From: a virus
Virus record (IMG/VR): IMGVR_UViG_3300017697_000134
Span: 1-20,199 of that record
Reading direction: 5' to 3' (one strand)
Length of the DNA stretch: 20,199 nucleotides
This document shows positions 13,018 through 19,930 of this stretch, piece after piece; within the stretch, counting starts at the first letter, position 1, and each line of letters starts with the position of its first letter. A model generated the notes under the pieces. That model was not told the origin of the DNA. It saw nothing but the letters and a program-made list of their open reading frames with translations, and ran no database searches. The translations under genes were made by a program, and so were the position numbers.

Positions 13018-13937
13018 TATCTGTTATATAAATTTGGATTGCCAAAATTAAAACTGCCTGTACCTGCTTTTTTTTCTTCTTTAGTATAATTTGCAGGTGT
13101 CGATTGATTTAGACCAAATCTTTCAAATGGATTAACACTTGTTGCTCCAGAAGCTACTGCATCATCAATAACTTGTTGCTCTGTCATTGCTCTTGCGTAG
13201 TTTTGTTGATCGTTAGTTCTATCTCTTTCATTCTTAGCATCAATTTGATAATTAATTTCACTTGCATCAAATTGTTGATTGCCTGTCATTAATTGATTAG
13301 CTGCTTGTGCATTATCAATTATTTGCATAGGATTTTGTAAATTATAAACTGGCTCTCCTTGTTTATTATTCGTAAAATTGTAGCCAAGTTCATTTAATCT
13401 TTCTTTCATAAATTTATTTCTTATGTCAGAACTATCTAAGCCTAAAAATTTTAATCCAGAGCCAAACATTCCAAAATTCATAGGATTATTTAAAGTATAT
13501 TGACCATCTTTGCCTGTCATGTAAGCACCTGCACCAGTAAGATAATTTAAAAATTCATAATCATCCATTTTTTTCATATCATCAATAGAGTAATATTCTC
13601 TAGGAGGAGCATCTGGATCATCATCTCGTTGTTCATCATAAACTGATTGACCAAATTGTTCTACTGGCTGACATATACCATCAACTAACATAAAACCTTC
13701 TGGACAAGGATCAACAGGTGTGTCTGGTACAGAAAAATCTAATTGTGGATTTGGAAAATCTGCACTAGGATCTAATTCGCCTAAACCTTCTTGTACTGTT
13801 CGTAAATCATATAAAGGATTACGAAATTTACCTGCACTATTAACATTAGGTGTAGAGTTAAGTTTACCACCAAGATAATCACTTATTACTGATTGTGCTT
13901 CTGAGCCTTGCATAAAAGGTGTAAATTTTGTTGCCAT
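13017..13937 (-). CDS. Hypothetical protein between portal and scaffold, with Cys motif
   Basis: A 306-aa protein, rich in Asn, Asp, Gln and Pro. Residues about 70-100 are Pro/Asp-rich and include CPEGFMLVDGICQP, two Cys spaced by a Gly-rich turn, a motif resembling the 'CPxGxxxxxGxC' pieces of small disulphide or metal folds. A second part (NPMNFGMFGSGLKFLGLDSS, near 150-172) is hydrophobic and Gly-rich, and the C-terminal third is Asn/Gln-rich and probably disordered. I recognise no family with a known role. It is coupled by TAATG overlaps to both neighbours and so is likely co-produced with portal and scaffold. A head-internal or head-assembly function is a guess from position. Confidence 0.5.
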   Translation of the reverse strand: MATKFTPFMQGSEAQSVISDYLGGKLNSTPNVNSAGKFRNPLYDLRTVQEGLGELDPSADFPNPQLDFSVPDTPVDPCPEGFMLVDGICQPVEQFGQSVYDEQRDDDPDAPPREYYSIDDMKKMDDYEFLNYLTGAGAYMTGKDGQYTLNNPMNFGMFGSGLKFLGLDSSDIRNKFMKERLNELGYNFTNNKQGEPVYNLQNPMQIIDNAQAANQLMTGNQQFDASEINYQIDAKNERDRTNDQQNYARAMTEQQVIDDAVASGATSVNPFERFGLNQSTPANYTKEEKKAGTGSFNFGNPNLYNR

Positions 13938-15937
13938 TAATTCATTCCTTGTTGTAGAATTTTAGAAGCTAATTTTTCTTTTTCTAATTGTGATACATTT
14001 TGCTCTTTCACAACTTGCGTGGCAAGTTTCTGTTCATCGAGATTCATTTTTTGCATCTTAAATTCATTATCAGCTTCTAATTTTCTATTTTTAAAATCTG
14101 CATCTGCCATAGCCTTCTGTTTACTAATTTCTATTTGTTGTGCTGCTAACTGCAATGCAGGATCTTGTTTTTCTTCTTTAGGTGGTTGAGGTGGTTGCTG
14201 TGAAGGATTGTTAAAGAATTGCGTTGCATCTTTATAACCACTATTTTGCAAGTAAGCCTCAATTGTATTGTAAATTGTTTGTGGAGTTACCATGCCCATT
14301 CCACCTTGTTGCTGTATCATTTTTTCTTGCACATTTAATACTTGTTGTAATACTTCTAATCGTTGATCTTGGTTTCCTGTACCGAGTCCAACTTGTGTAA
14401 TACAGTCATAATGTGAAGTCCATTGACGAGGATTCATGGGAATAAACTCGCCTCGTAATTTAACTATTCTTTCTTGATCTTGATACTCACATATTACTGC
14501 TAATATGTTTTCAAAAATATCTTTTACTCCATCAGCGAATGATCTTGCAATTAATTCTATTCTTTGTGTAGAACTATTCATCATTTGATTAACTGATTGT
14601 GCAGTTGTATGTGATTTGTTAATTGTATCTGGATTTAAACCCATTAATTGATTGGGTACTCCAGATCTTTTTTCTTTTAACTGGTCAATCTTTTGTAGCA
14701 TCGCCAAACCATCATTTAAAAAGTTTGGAGTCTGTAAAGGTGTAACAGCATTAGGCGATTTTACTCGTACAATGCCACCTGCTCTTGAAGTAAGTAAATC
14801 ATCTAGGTTTGCTTGACCATCAACAACAATTGTTCTTGCGTTATTTTGAAAATACATATTATCAAGGGTGTTACGCATGATTGTTGTACTCATCATTTGC
14901 ACATCAGCTAATAAATCGTACATGGATAGACCAAAAAACCTAAAAGGCATTGGTATTGCTACACACATAGCAAAAGGCATTTTGTTAATGACTTCATTTT
15001 CTAAAATAATGTAATTATTATAGCCACTACCACCAACAATAATCTTTCTTAGCTCTCCAATGCCATCGCCATCCATATCAACCTTCATGTAGCACTCAGT
15101 TATTTGTACTACTCTCTGGGAGGGATCAATATTAGAGATTTCAATGTCCATTGATGGATCATCATAGCTTCTTCTTACCATTGCTTCAGTATTAAAGACA
15201 TCTTGCTCACTACTAGGCAAACTTTCAACATCTTTTTTGTTAAAACCCATGTCTATTAGCTCAGAAACAGTTTTTGTTACTCTGTGAGCTATAAAATTAC
15301 AGTCTTTTAAGTTTTTTGCTCTTGGAGACACCAATATTTCTTCTGGTGGTACAGGATCTATCTGGCATCTGCCATATTCCTTAACTCTTTTAACTTCACA
15401 ATTGTAAAAAAGACCTTCATCTTCTTCTATTTCTTCTACTTCAACAATTTCAACCTCTTCATCAATAAGTAATGCTTGATATTGTGTCTCGTCTAAGTGT
15501 TCATAATGTTCTTTTTTCTGCTCTTTGGATGTTTTCCAATAAATTTTACAAAAACCATTCTTCTGAAGTAGTGCAGTCTTAAACATAGAGTGCAAAATCT
15601 CAAAACCATTGTTATCACGATTAAATATAAAATTGCAATAGTCAGTAATTTGGTCAGCATATGGTACATCTTCAGCTTGTTGTGGCTCAAAATTAACCAT
15701 TTTGTCAGATTGCGTAAACATACGCATTAAACTTGGCAATATTGACTCTACAACCTCTAATATATCTTGTGATACAACTGAGCTTCTGCCTTCTGTCTCG
15801 TTACCTAAAGGCTCTCCTAAATAATATTTAAGTGCTTCTTTGCGTTGCGTTGATAAATCACTATCATAAAATCCAAGAGAGCTTGAGATCTCTTGTGAGA
15901 TTAATGCGAGTAATTTTGATTTTGATAATTTTGCCAT
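13937..15937 (-). CDS. Portal protein (P22-like class)
   Basis: A 666-aa protein, a size typical of large podovirus portals (P22 gp1 has 725). The N-terminal part (SSLGFYDSDLSTQRKEALKYYLGEPLGNETEGRSSVVS, residues about 18-55, key elements R..AL.YYLG and GRS.VVS..I) and the following DILEVVESILPSLMRMF are the portal signature of this class. The core (residues 280-480) contains PFAMCVAIPMPFRFFGLSMY and the NPDTINKSHTTAQSVN region, matching the crown/stem region of these portals. The last 90 residues form a Gln/Lys-rich coiled coil, like the barrel helix that projects into the head. The ring is the DNA channel and the terminase dock, and genes for TerL and adaptor flank it accordingly. ATG with AGGA eleven bases upstream; 3 bp from the TerL stop. 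Confidence 0.9.
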   Translation of the reverse strand: MAKLSKSKLLALISQEISSSLGFYDSDLSTQRKEALKYYLGEPLGNETEGRSSVVSQDILEVVESILPSLMRMFTQSDKMVNFEPQQAEDVPYADQITDYCNFIFNRDNNGFEILHSMFKTALLQKNGFCKIYWKTSKEQKKEHYEHLDETQYQALLIDEEVEIVEVEEIEEDEGLFYNCEVKRVKEYGRCQIDPVPPEEILVSPRAKNLKDCNFIAHRVTKTVSELIDMGFNKKDVESLPSSEQDVFNTEAMVRRSYDDPSMDIEISNIDPSQRVVQITECYMKVDMDGDGIGELRKIIVGGSGYNNYIILENEVINKMPFAMCVAIPMPFRFFGLSMYDLLADVQMMSTTIMRNTLDNMYFQNNARTIVVDGQANLDDLLTSRAGGIVRVKSPNAVTPLQTPNFLNDGLAMLQKIDQLKEKRSGVPNQLMGLNPDTINKSHTTAQSVNQMMNSSTQRIELIARSFADGVKDIFENILAVICEYQDQERIVKLRGEFIPMNPRQWTSHYDCITQVGLGTGNQDQRLEVLQQVLNVQEKMIQQQGGMGMVTPQTIYNTIEAYLQNSGYKDATQFFNNPSQQPPQPPKEEKQDPALQLAAQQIEISKQKAMADADFKNRKLEADNEFKMQKMNLDEQKLATQVVKEQNVSQLEKEKLASKILQQGMN

Positions 15938-15940
15938 TCG

Positions 15941-17191
15941 TTAAATAATTCCTGCGTTGTTATATTGTAATTTTGTTGTCCATTCGCTTGACTGATTGTT
16001 TCCTACTGCAAAGTACCGAAAAGCATCAGAAGCATGAGAAGTCCAATCGTGAACTGTTTTATTTTTTAATTCGCCTCGTTCATTACTTGCCCATCTGTAT
16101 TGACGAAGAGCATCGAGTCCATGTTTTGTTTTTTCATGGTCAAACCAACACCTTGATAAAACCATTCTCACAGCATTAATACCATCTTCGACAGAGAGCT
16201 TTGGAACAATAGATGTTCTCATCCCTAAAGACTGTGCAGTCTCTACTCGTGATACACCAGTTCCAAGTTCTCTGACATTTGCATCATGTGGGAGGTAATG
16301 CGTATCGTAAATATATTTTTTTTCATCAAGAACAGTTGTGTAGTATTCTAAACTTTCTCCACTATCTTCATAGTAATCTATAATATGGAATGCACTTCCT
16401 TTTTGTTGCACAAACCAAATAGCAGTTTTATCTGCCATCCCAAGATCCCAGTAAGTATTAACTTTAATACCAGTCTCATAAGGAACTTTTGTAATTCTTT
16501 TTTCTTCTTCTGCTTTATTTAATCCTTTTGCATAGATTGAGCCTATGGCTGCACTATCAAAAGAGCATTCAAATTCTGCTTCATATACTTCTTCTGGCAT
16601 TAAGGCTTTTGCTTCATTAAGTTCTAGCTCAGAGATAATGTTTGTATTACTTGCTTTAAATATTTCTGCATACCAATCTTCTTGGTGTAGAGCATGGTCA
16701 TATAACTGGTGAAAGCTGTTGTGACCTTGAGGAGTACCAATCGCTATCATAAAACCTTCTCTATCAGATAAAGCAGGTCTAATTACTTCAGTCCATAGTC
16801 TAGGAGGCATTTGAGCCACTTCGTCTAGGACTACACCATCAATATATAAACCTCTTAAACTGTCTGGTCTTTCACATCCTAGTAATTGTATTCTTGCACC
16901 ATTAGGTAAATCTGCTCTAAGCTCAGTTTCGTGGTAAGTAACATCTGGTAAGACACCAGTATATTCTTTCACATAATCCCAAGCAGTTCTTTTTGCCATT
17001 GAGTATGTAGGAGCTAGATAATAATATCTAGGTCTTGGCAATGTATTCTGCATTGCTTTTTTCAGCAGTTCATTAATACAGAGAACAGTCTTGCCAAATC
17101 GTCTATGACAGACAAGGACATTAAATCTTTTTAAATTCTTATGGACAGCCTTTTGATGTTCTCTTGGCTTATAAGGTATGACAATTTTCAA
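15941..17191 (-). CDS. terL: Terminase large subunit (TerL), TTG start
   Basis: A 416-aa packaging motor with both active domains. ATPase: Walker A CHRRFGKT at 28-35, Walker B DGVVLDE at 118-124 with D123 and the catalytic E124, and coupling motif IGTPQG at 151-156. RNase H-like nuclease: acidic residues consistent with D249 (YWDLGMADKTAIW), D303 (LPHDAN) and D389 (TSHASDAFRYF). It cuts concatemers and drives DNA through the portal using ATP. The start is TTG at 17191 (overlapping the upstream stop, TTGA). No ATG occurs before Met47, which would remove Walker A, and an AGGA/AAGGA region lies just upstream, so TTG is required. The N-terminal YKPREHQ element is intact, supporting this start. 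Confidence 0.95.
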   Translation of the reverse strand: MKIVIPYKPREHQKAVHKNLKRFNVLVCHRRFGKTVLCINELLKKAMQNTLPRPRYYYLAPTYSMAKRTAWDYVKEYTGVLPDVTYHETELRADLPNGARIQLLGCERPDSLRGLYIDGVVLDEVAQMPPRLWTEVIRPALSDREGFMIAIGTPQGHNSFHQLYDHALHQEDWYAEIFKASNTNIISELELNEAKALMPEEVYEAEFECSFDSAAIGSIYAKGLNKAEEEKRITKVPYETGIKVNTYWDLGMADKTAIWFVQQKGSAFHIIDYYEDSGESLEYYTTVLDEKKYIYDTHYLPHDANVRELGTGVSRVETAQSLGMRTSIVPKLSVEDGINAVRMVLSRCWFDHEKTKHGLDALRQYRWASNERGELKNKTVHDWTSHASDAFRYFAVGNNQSSEWTTKLQYNNAGII

Positions 17192-17361
17192 ACATCCTTA
17201 CTTTCCTGCTCTAAATAATCTTTCATACTGGCAACATCACTTCCTTTAACTTGACCTCTACCACTAGACTCTGGAAGCTGAGTTTTTTCATTCATCGCTT
17301 TTACTAATTCTGCGAATGGATCGTTTTCTTTTTTCTTTTTAGTTTTCTTTTTTTTAAGCAT
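17188..17361 (-). CDS. Small lysine-rich protein, unknown
   Basis: A 57-aa protein from the ATG at 17361. The N-terminus is almost pure Lys (LKKKKTKKKKEN), followed by an acidic/polar part (DPFAELVKAMNEKTQ, then SDVASMKDYLEQESKDV). The start overlaps the end of the 592-aa gene by 8 bp, and the stop overlaps the TerL TTG. An upstream TTG in the same frame (17406) would add 15 residues, but it has no better ribosome binding site and lies entirely within the other gene. The basic head could bind nucleic acid and might assist packaging; this is speculation. The reading frame has no known family that I can name. Confidence 0.55.
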   Translation of the reverse strand: MLKKKKTKKKKENDPFAELVKAMNEKTQLPESSGRGQVKGSDVASMKDYLEQESKDV

Positions 17362-19132
17362 AATTAAATAATGGATTAACTGGCATTGAAGCAAATAGTT
17401 CTTCAAACTCTTTTAATAAATCTAATCTTTCTTTTTCAGTATTATATTTTTTAATTTCAATTCCATTGTCTTTTAATATTTGCAAAGTTTTTTCATCGGT
17501 GTTGTTTGGCACAATAGCACCTTTAAACTCATTCATTTGCAATGCTCTATTTGGTTTTATTTCAAAATATTCAGAAGGTGTATTTGCAAGTTTTTCTAAA
17601 AACTTTATAACTTCTTGTTTTGTTGCTTCTGAAGTATCTGGATAAAATTCTTTAAAGTTTTGTTCAATAGAATATTTTTTATCGCTAAATATACTATTAA
17701 AATTATCTCCTAGTTCATAACTTTTAGGATCTAAATGTTTATTTTCTTTGGCAAGTAAATCTGTAATTCTACTTAGTTCTGTATAAAGATCTGATTTAAT
17801 ATCAGACATTTCTTCGCTAGTAACAAAAGTATCTCTTGCTTCAGACAATTCTTTTTTATTTTTAAACTTACCTCGCATTGTAGCAGCTAGGTTGCCTATA
17901 TTACCACTACCACCAAATCCTTCTTCTTTACCTGCATTTGTTTTCATGTGTGCTAACACATTTTCTAAAGTATGGTCTTTGTATTTAAGTTTGCCCATAG
18001 GAGTACGACCTGCAACAATTTTTTCTTTGCCTTGAACACCTATTCTTTCAGCTAAACTTTTATTCCATTCTTTGTATTCTGCGTTTAATTCTGGTGTCCA
18101 CACCTCATCTAATAATCTTTTATAAGCATATTTATCTTCAGCTAAATTAAAATCTGGTAGCAATCCTTTTTCTTTTAAGAATGCCATATCCAACATATCT
18201 GTTGGCAAGTTATTAATGCCTTTTTCAATTATTTGATTATATAAATCTCCTGCATAAAACACAGCTTGGTTTGATCCATCATCGAATTTAAAATCTGATA
18301 TTTTTCTATAATCATAACGAATATCATCAACTTCAAATATGTCTGAGAAATAATCTATGATCTGATCCATTTCATTATCAGCATATATTGTTCTAACAAG
18401 AGGGTATCTCTGCGTGTAAGCATCTCCCTTGTAAACAGGATTATTCTTAGAAGGTATCATTAGCTCTGGATCGCCAACTAAAGTTATTTCGCCAAACTTC
18501 ATTTCTTCTATATTTTCTGGAACAACTGCTAAACTTGGTTTTGGCATACCACCAATATTGTCGTAGTTTTGTATAGCATCTGCACCTGTGTTATGAATAA
18601 CAGCCATGCCTTTGCCTTCTTCATATGTGCCTAATATGCCTTCTTTTATATTAGACTCTTCTTCTAAATCTTTATTGTATAATATTTGTGGTTTCTCAAT
18701 AGGTATTGATGGAAAGCCAGTATTTGTTGGTATTTCAATTTCTGGTATAGGAGTTACATTATCAGTATTTTCTATTTCTGGTAGTTCTCCTCCAGTCGAG
18801 TAATCGTCTATGTTAGGCTCGTAGATAGGAGTTGATAAAATGTTTCTTTTTTTCCATTCTTCTAAATCTATTTCCTCTGGTGCATCTGGTCTGCTATCCA
18901 TTCCATCTGGTGTCCATGTAACTGCTTTGTTAATATGGTTGTCAATAATTTCTTGTGCAGAGTCTTTTGCTAATAAACTGTTACTGTTATCAATGATGTT
19001 TGGTGTTTGTGTTAATAATCCTGCTGTACCAATTCCTACTAAGGCTTGAGCATTATTTAATTCGTTCCAATAAGGTGCAGGGGATGGTTTAAATCCACTT
19101 GGTCTTATGGGGAAGTATGCTGCTCTTGTCAT
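17354..19132 (-). CDS. Polyvalent-protein-like protein of unknown function between TerS and TerL
   Basis: A 592-aa protein. The first 170 residues are Pro/Asn/Glu-rich and probably unstructured. From about 178 to 545 it carries a set of elements that I recall from domains attached to 'large polyvalent proteins' of phages and conjugative elements: HN(T)...GGMPKPSLAVV at 180-204, FGEITLVG at 213-220, DAYTQRYP at 237-244, a KYKDHTLENVLAHM segment at 383-396, FGGSGNIGNL at 406-415, KFKNKKELSEARD at 422-434 and EYFEIKPNRALQM..FKGAIVP at 521-542. In those proteins this region accompanies enzyme domains; here it stands alone, with no methylase, helicase, protease or ADP-ribosyltransferase motif seen. 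Polyvalent proteins are thought to enter the host with the DNA and act against host functions. Whether this one does is inference. ATG at 19132 has only a weak upstream ribosome site. Confidence 0.6.
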   Translation of the reverse strand: MTRAAYFPIRPSGFKPSPAPYWNELNNAQALVGIGTAGLLTQTPNIIDNSNSLLAKDSAQEIIDNHINKAVTWTPDGMDSRPDAPEEIDLEEWKKRNILSTPIYEPNIDDYSTGGELPEIENTDNVTPIPEIEIPTNTGFPSIPIEKPQILYNKDLEEESNIKEGILGTYEEGKGMAVIHNTGADAIQNYDNIGGMPKPSLAVVPENIEEMKFGEITLVGDPELMIPSKNNPVYKGDAYTQRYPLVRTIYADNEMDQIIDYFSDIFEVDDIRYDYRKISDFKFDDGSNQAVFYAGDLYNQIIEKGINNLPTDMLDMAFLKEKGLLPDFNLAEDKYAYKRLLDEVWTPELNAEYKEWNKSLAERIGVQGKEKIVAGRTPMGKLKYKDHTLENVLAHMKTNAGKEEGFGGSGNIGNLAATMRGKFKNKKELSEARDTFVTSEEMSDIKSDLYTELSRITDLLAKENKHLDPKSYELGDNFNSIFSDKKYSIEQNFKEFYPDTSEATKQEVIKFLEKLANTPSEYFEIKPNRALQMNEFKGAIVPNNTDEKTLQILKDNGIEIKKYNTEKERLDLLKEFEELFASMPVNPLFNYA

Positions 19133-19170
19133 TGTAAAATCTCGTTAGGGGTTTGTTTTGTGTTGAAATA

Positions 19171-19210
19171 GCTCCCCTGCAATTTGCAGCCGAGCCGATG
19201 GGGTGCAGCC
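19171..19210. promoter_or_regulatory. GC-rich structured element upstream of the 592-aa gene
   Basis: 27 of 40 bases are G or C, in a genome that is about one third GC. It contains the palindrome CTGCAA-T-TTGCAG (19177-19189), which can be extended by GCTC/GAGC (19171-19174 with 19192-19195) across a 2x2 internal loop. Alternatively, CCCC (19174-19177) could pair with GGGG (19200-19203). TGCAGCC occurs twice (19185-19191 and 19204-19210). It lies about 40 bases before the ATG at 19132. Candidates are an RNA leader structure, a protein-binding operator or a terminase recognition site. Confidence 0.5.
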
Positions 19211-19258
19211 AAAAATAATTTATCAAATCAAACTAGGAAAAAATAAAATATCTGGAAG

Positions 19259-19276
19259 CTGACCAATATCTGACCA
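19259..19276. repeat. Direct repeat CTGACCA, period 11 bp
   Basis: CTGACCA occurs at 19259-19265 and 19270-19276, separated by ATAT. A spacing of 11 bp places the two copies on the same face of the helix, as for a dimeric or cooperatively binding protein. It lies in the non-coding gap beside terS. Two copies of seven bases could arise by chance, so this is suggestive only. Confidence 0.4.
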
Positions 19277-19510
19277 GTTACTTAAAAAGCTAGGGAATTC
19301 CTTACTTAATATACTAGGTAATATAATAAATTATTTATTTCTGTAATTTTTTTTAATTTTTTAAATAAAAAAATATATTTTTCACACGAGAGTACAGGAA
19401 AAGAAATAGTGTATTTCGTAAGCATTTGTTTTAATCCCTACCTTTTCTATCTATCCCTATCCATACCAAACCTTAACTAACCTCTAGTTTCATCCTATAT
19501 TCGTCTATAT

Positions 19511-19930
19511 CTAATCACTAGCCCAACTTATCTCTATCTTCTTATCGTCTGCATCAGTAATACTTAATGTTTGTTTCTCAGTACCATATTGCTTCGGAGC
19601 TAACTTACCTGCCTGCCATTGAATGTTCTTAGAGTATATCTCTAACAGTTTAACTTCAGCCATTGGTATATTCTTTTTATCCAGAGCATTCTCTATCTTC
19701 TCATCTACTTTACTAATCAGCATCTCTATCCCTGCCTCTTTAGCTTTGTAGTAAGCATCTCGCAGCTTATCATCTTTATCCATCCATGCTCTCCAACTAG
19801 GATAAGTAATACCAGATTGCATTGTTGCGTGTTTAATGCCAATGCCTTGAGATAAGAGTGTCAGTACATCTTTAACTATTGTTTTAGAATACTTGGAAGG
19901 TCTGCCCTTCTTTACTGTTACTTCATTCAT
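19511..19930 (-). CDS. terS: Terminase small subunit (putative)
   Basis: A 139-aa protein. Residues about 7-53 form a helix-turn-helix-like region: GRPSKYSKTIVKDVLTLLSQ, then GIGIKHATMQSGITYPSWRAWM. The following segment DKDDKLRDAYYKAKEAGIEM and a long helix (58-105) fit the oligomerisation core. The ending (KLAPKQYGTEKQTLSITD... IEISWASD) closely resembles small terminase C-termini of the form 'P-K-x-Y-G...T-x-x-W-x-x-D'. It recognises the packaging site and presents DNA to TerL. Start ATG at 19930 overlaps the upstream stop (TAATG) and has no visible ribosome binding site. Two genes and a gap separate it from TerL, which is unusual but known. Its sequence seems slightly richer in GC and CTG/CTC codons than the virion genes. 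Confidence 0.75.
   Translation of the reverse strand: MNEVTVKKGRPSKYSKTIVKDVLTLLSQGIGIKHATMQSGITYPSWRAWMDKDDKLRDAYYKAKEAGIEMLISKVDEKIENALDKKNIPMAEVKLLEIYSKNIQWQAGKLAPKQYGTEKQTLSITDADDKKIEISWASD

Follow-up and report, generated by a model that had tools for sequence, protein, structure and literature searches.

The window analyzed here is the entire 20,199-base record of a bacterial virus (IMG/VR record IMGVR_UViG_3300017697_000134). Its minus strand carries at 17354-19132, between the small and large terminase genes (TerS and TerL), an ATG-started open reading frame (ORF) of 592 aa, in which a disordered leader precedes a domain that is listed in Pfam as PBECR5 (PF18814) and is predicted to adopt an ADP-ribosyltransferase (ART) fold. 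We consider it reasonably probable that this gene is a phage effector of the polymorphic type, an ART-superfamily enzyme on a disordered leader that would be packaged, ejected and act on the host. A wider proposal, in which our belief and doubt are about equal, is that PF18814 is an unrecognized DarT/Tpt1-like ART family and that, just upstream of TerL, environmental phages with SU10-type portals keep an effector locus whose contents are exchanged rapidly, a constant leader serving to load one or another of many enzymes into the virion to act against the next host. The ORF, already delimited in a first-pass annotation of the window, is not a chance one, since relatives at 60-100% identity occur in many viral contigs, the family has hundreds of members, and substitutions at third codon positions of the domain are 3-5 times those at second positions, which reveals purifying selection on the domain. 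A plus-strand reading of the same interval was ruled out by 45 stops on that strand.

Exchange of enzymes behind a constant leader

The strongest evidence on the role of the effector comes from aligning the DNA from TerS to TerL with related loci (designated by L numbers). The L011 sequence is 85% identical to the window over TerS and onward into the leader, as far as about residue 143; there the similarity breaks, and it returns at 90% at the effector stop codon. The C-terminus of the L011 protein is ART-PolyVal (PF18760, E=3.2e-7), with a second domain behind it. L012 matches L011 at 97% over 1.3 kb, and in it TerL (about 93%) and the portal gene (88%) follow. Over the retained TerS, leader and TerL, nucleotide identity of L011 and L012 to the window is 84-90%. 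In L135 and L137, the sequence found just before the effector start is joined directly to the small ORF that precedes TerL, leaving a clean empty site from start to stop. Seventeen distinct relatives have TerS and TerL together on a contig and a TerS at least 65% identical; of these, 3 carry PBECR5 in the slot and 14 have no effector. The gene is thus dispensable and its enzyme part exchangeable, and because that part is replaced or the whole gene missing in close relatives, the effector is an accessory, modular protein, most likely packaged and delivered with the DNA. The same exchanges and losses suggest a cargo directed against the host, not a component of the shell.

Two further loci, L013 and L014, carry a leader similar to that of the window on a third C-terminal domain, away from the terminase genes. 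This domain (ELQSDW...RYDLS; L013:870-2972, L014:5860-7983) has no Pfam match and is a recurrent putative effector domain; L153:2-796, before TerL, holds only a fragment of it. DNA methyltransferase genes, MT-A70-like or N6_N4_Mtase, lie upstream of TerL in several relatives (L012:1397-1822, L132:1089-1514, L135:1370-1735, L155:166-930), and their position is a second variable site beside the effector slot.

The same design recurs on other leaders. A second leader (B) carries PBECR5 in L020 and ART-PolyVal in L208 and L209, the leaders being 77% identical, and precedes a further C-terminus in L280. A third (C), of a distant phage lineage, carries PBECR5 in L237 and other cassettes in L240 (a weak GNAT match), L241, L247 (ART-PolyVal below the cut-off) and L248; where both genes are visible, the distance from the leader C gene to TerL downstream is about 280-1800 bp in all but one case. 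Counted together, the leaders form three families, and each family carries at least two cassettes. By hhalign, leader B is perhaps distantly related to that of the window (leader A; probability 37%), and leader C shows no relation. Leader A has no match among the window's other proteins. DNA downstream of the leader C cassettes is 96-97% identical between loci and DNA upstream 91-96% identical, and such near-identical flanks around differing cassettes imply that enzymes are exchanged often, and have been so recently, behind an unchanging leader. More cassettes on leaders C and B were seen at L251:4553-5908, L245:4998-5741 and L280:3661-4458, one with a zincin-like HELQH motif and two with GNHRYAA / DGHHRAK motifs of ParB-like resemblance, unconfirmed by Pfam.

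The case for delivery in the virion combines published reasoning with the company that the domain keeps elsewhere. Iyer et al. (2022) infer head packaging for phage ARTs encoded near terminase and portal genes (PMC9503650), and relatives of the window domain lie within giant proteins adjoining internal virion genes. The same enzyme in the same slot could also remain unpackaged and act late inside the producing cell, through host shut-off, exclusion of competitor phages or protection of phage DNA. This alternative is possible, if rather less probable: the variable genes next to it in relatives encode DNA methyltransferases, enzymes that work within the producing cell, and the leader has no known packaging signal, but the giant proteins that contain the domain are encoded among internal virion genes in phages Ab9 and Carin1, and the sharing of one leader by different enzymes suggests a shared route. 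We therefore retain packaging and ejection with the DNA as the preferred reading.

Fold and invariant residues of the PF18814 domain

Residues 170-267 of the effector match PF18814 with E=3.2e-14 and 53.8 bits, against a curated cut-off of 25. The full name of this family is phage-Barnase-EndoU-ColicinE5/D-RelE like nuclease5, and the domain is known from polyvalent proteins (PMC5512222). Its profile covers only the first ~100 residues of the domain; tblastn matches in annotated phages extend over residues 159-580. All of the aligned members of the wider family (69/69) match PF18814. In viral contigs the domain forms solo proteins of about 500-630 aa; it is also found inside giant proteins, those of phages measuring 2840-3600 aa. 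The giant form occurs in Acinetobacter phage Ab9 (about 2840 aa), in gp32 of Cobetia phage Carin1 (about 2850 aa) and in Bacteroides phage BF1-TP2, as well as in many ORFs of gut bacteria. The first-pass annotation, which had seen here a module of polyvalent proteins kept as a separate gene, is borne out on both counts, and the co-packaged host-takeover or counter-defense factor that it suggested agrees with the reading that we favor. A stand-alone member, Roseobacter phage CRP-901 gp66 (L017:7818-9377, annotated 'nuclease'), lies among structural genes of a cultured phage and is for that reason the best experimental entry point to the family. Searches of the effector against NCBIfam gave no match and a sequence search of the PDB only chance matches; weak Pfam rows for DUF5621 and ApoL were treated as chance. 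Of the papers searched, none mentions PF18814 and two name PBECR.

Eleven residues never vary in the 69 sequences: H180, N181, P199, S200, G214, D237, Y522, F523, E524, K526 and P542. Most of these sequences were collected with the pattern YFE[AIT]K, so that the C-terminal motif is partly built in. The motif is also kept in members found without the pattern (Ab9, Carin1, CRP-901, BF1-TP2, MT836973, L230 and L233-L235), of which L230 and L233-L235 were found through the N-terminal Pfam profile; in L232, likewise found without the pattern, the motif was not found, the reading frame breaking ahead of its position. The motifs quoted in the first-pass annotation all lie at the residues given there (HN 180-181, GGMPKPSLAVV 194-204, FGEITLVG 213-220, DAYTQRYP 237-244, HTLENVLAHM 387-396, FGGSG 406-410, EYFEIKPNRA 521-530, GAIVP 538-542). 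Its view that the protein is 'without an obvious enzyme' does not hold, as these motifs mark the invariant positions of an enzyme domain.

An AlphaFold2 model of the window protein has a predicted local distance difference test score (pLDDT) of about 95 for most of residues 160-580 and below 50 for most of the first 160. The leader, rich in Pro, Ile, Glu and Asn, accordingly comprises residues 1-159 (18656-19132, minus strand), and the predicted ART-fold domain residues 160-582 (17387-18655), with a large, mostly helical insertion at about 250-515. H180-N181 (18590-18595) form the end of the first core strand, 176-182, ahead of the first core helix, and H180 is the predicted NAD+-binding histidine. 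P199-S200 (18533-18538) begin the second core strand. The segment Y522-F523-E524-I-K526 (17555-17569) contains the predicted catalytic glutamate, E524, in the fifth core strand (523-525), about 340 residues past H180 and beyond the insertion. In a VIA-align comparison of this model, DarT (7omy, Z 7.3), Tpt1 (7yw4, 6.9) and DarT1 (8baq, 6.7) hold ranks 1, 2 and 3, and a second DarT (7omu, 6.2) rank 5; the DarT/Tpt1 matches span residues 161-574, and the other high rows are helical matches within the insertion only. Since Z values of this size could be accidental, we also modeled L094, a gut relative of Veillonellaceae origin that shares about 25% identity with the window protein; the predicted template modeling score (pTM) of this second model is 0.85. 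Its top eight structural rows all belong to the ART superfamily (Z 8.9 to 6.5), namely DarT of several species, DarT1, Tpt1 and the NAD-bound Salmonella ART effector 7dn9; the next row falls to 5.0 and is followed by helical noise. The two models were built from overlapping alignments and are not fully independent. Both show a split beta-sheet core with a His on strand 1 and a Glu on strand 5, as in the ART superfamily. When positions are counted from the limits of the aligned segments, DarT H13 adjoins the invariant His and DarT E160 coincides with the invariant Glu; in DarT these residues contact NAD+ and catalyze the transfer (PMC9967889, PMC11543638). Serine-racemase-like rows were rejected, as they match over about 45 residues only.

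Several observations weigh against an ART assignment. For neither model did Foldseek return a PDB match below E=0.001, and structural Z values of 6-9 lie in a range where unrelated folds occur too. By hhalign, neither half of the domain showed a sequence relation to DarT, the DarT profile consisting of two sequences only. The catalytic Arg of the DarT NAD+-binding loop, R51, has no evident counterpart among the invariant residues; R242, the one Arg in the vicinity that was considered, is kept in 70%. Finally, Pfam and Iyer et al. (2017) assign the domain as an RNase of the Barnase-EndoU-ColicinE5/D-RelE (BECR) fold (PMC5512222).

According to that assignment, the domain would be a metal-independent endoRNase and, once delivered, would cut RNA of the host or the phage. 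The name of PF18814 and the published PBECR assignment, with its conserved His and Ser/Thr (PMC5512222), speak for it, as do the profile match of the window protein and its own invariant His and Ser. The original description of the family (PMC5512222), however, places the signature His inside the N-terminal helix, whereas in both models the invariant His occupies a strand before the helix. The strands that complete the core and bear the invariant Glu moreover lie about 300 residues farther along the chain, and the structural neighbors are ARTs; barnase-, RelE-, EndoU- or colicin-type folds are absent from the structural matches listed for either model, an absence that does not exclude them. 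We thus regard a BECR nuclease as unlikely. From the models, the domain most likely has the ART fold, and the database label 'nuclease' for PF18814 is probably wrong. That the gene encodes an ordinary head structural or assembly protein without an enzymatic role, as its place in the packaging and head operon might suggest, is very improbable given its clean absence or C-terminal replacement in close phages, its invariant polar residues of active-site type, and a structure comparison that found no match to a head or tail component; a match of that kind is what the first-pass annotation had named as contrary to its own proposal.

Proposed mechanism and gene order

Based on the above data, we propose that the effector is made late from the packaging operon and that the leader (1-160) probably places it in the virion during late assembly. 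The domain (160-582) would bind NAD+ via H180 and E524 and either transfer ADP-ribose or cleave NAD+; its predicted shape is nearest to DarT and Tpt1, ART members that act on nucleic acids. Having been ejected with the DNA, the enzyme would modify a nucleic acid or a protein of the new host at an early stage of infection, in favor of takeover or counter-defense. If true, this would move a widespread 'nuclease'-annotated domain to its correct enzyme class and point to a place between phage terminase genes where host-directed enzymes swap among almost identical phages. Such phages are a natural experiment, a near-isogenic set differing in one probably delivered enzyme and with matching empty sites, which lets the role of the effector in host range and counter-defense be tested directly. 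The leader, should it be a packaging signal, would also be a handle for predicting more virion-delivered enzymes.

The head and packaging operon runs on the minus strand in the order TerS, effector, 57-aa ORF, TerL, portal, scaffold, major capsid protein and tail genes. TerS (19511-19930) is Sf6-like (Pfam Sf6_terminase, E=1.6e-11), TerL (15941-17191) has a TTG start and matches Pfam Terminase_6N, and the SU10-type portal gene (13937-15937) belongs to the same operon. The first-pass annotation had set the effector gene between the two terminase genes; both do flank it, but the basic 57-aa ORF (17188-17361, minus strand), too short to pass the usual size cut for ORFs, also lies before TerL. The start of this ORF overlaps the effector stop and its stop overlaps the TerL start. 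In relatives it has 60-83 aa, immediately precedes TerL whether or not an effector is present, and keeps a conserved tail (...VKGSDVASMKDYLEQESKDV). A PHROG search gave no match, and the ORF probably encodes an unannotated packaging-related protein; a function as immunity protein was rejected, as it is also present in loci without an effector. The gap between TerS and the effector (19133-19510), about 380 non-coding bases, is conserved even in effector-less relatives and contains AACTGGTCAGATATTGGTCAG and a GC-rich stretch. It has no match in Rfam and could hold a promoter or a packaging site.

Comparison with known systems

The window gene shares clear PF18814 membership with PBECR5 of polyvalent proteins, and solo PBECR versions in phages were already mentioned when that family was described (PMC5512222). 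It differs in the ART-type, not BECR, core indicated by the two predicted structures, and in that one enzyme alone stands on an exchangeable leader, between the terminase genes. Polyvalent proteins comprise two to fifteen functional domains each (Iyer 2017, PMC5512222), whereas the window protein has one recognized domain and a disordered leader.

DarT and Tpt1/KptA are the best structural neighbors of the domain, and in the models the strand-1 His and strand-5 Glu of DarT fall at equivalent positions. Unlike them, the window domain has about 270 extra, mostly helical residues and shows no detectable sequence similarity (two-sequence DarT profile); a catalytic Arg is not evident, and no antitoxin partner was identified in the window slot. 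ART-PolyVal (PF18760), which replaces the window domain in the same slot and on the same leader in L011 and L012 and also uses leader B, is a different sequence family. A functional analogue is phage T4 Alt, an injected ADP-ribosyltransferase (PMC5512222, PMC9503650); the likeness drawn here is one of function, Alt being an R-S-E type ART in a different context.

Closest in design are the MuF polymorphic toxins of temperate phages, which likewise join a constant N-terminus to interchangeable C-terminal toxin domains in the DNA-packaging module (Jamet et al. 2017, PMC5576092). The window protein has no MuF domain by Pfam, and its gene lies upstream of TerL, not downstream of the portal gene. 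It also has no dedicated immunity ORF, since the downstream 57-aa ORF is found without the effector as well. The polyvalent and MuF designs are already known, and the effector slot described here, with neither MuF domain nor post-portal position nor immunity gene, differs from both.
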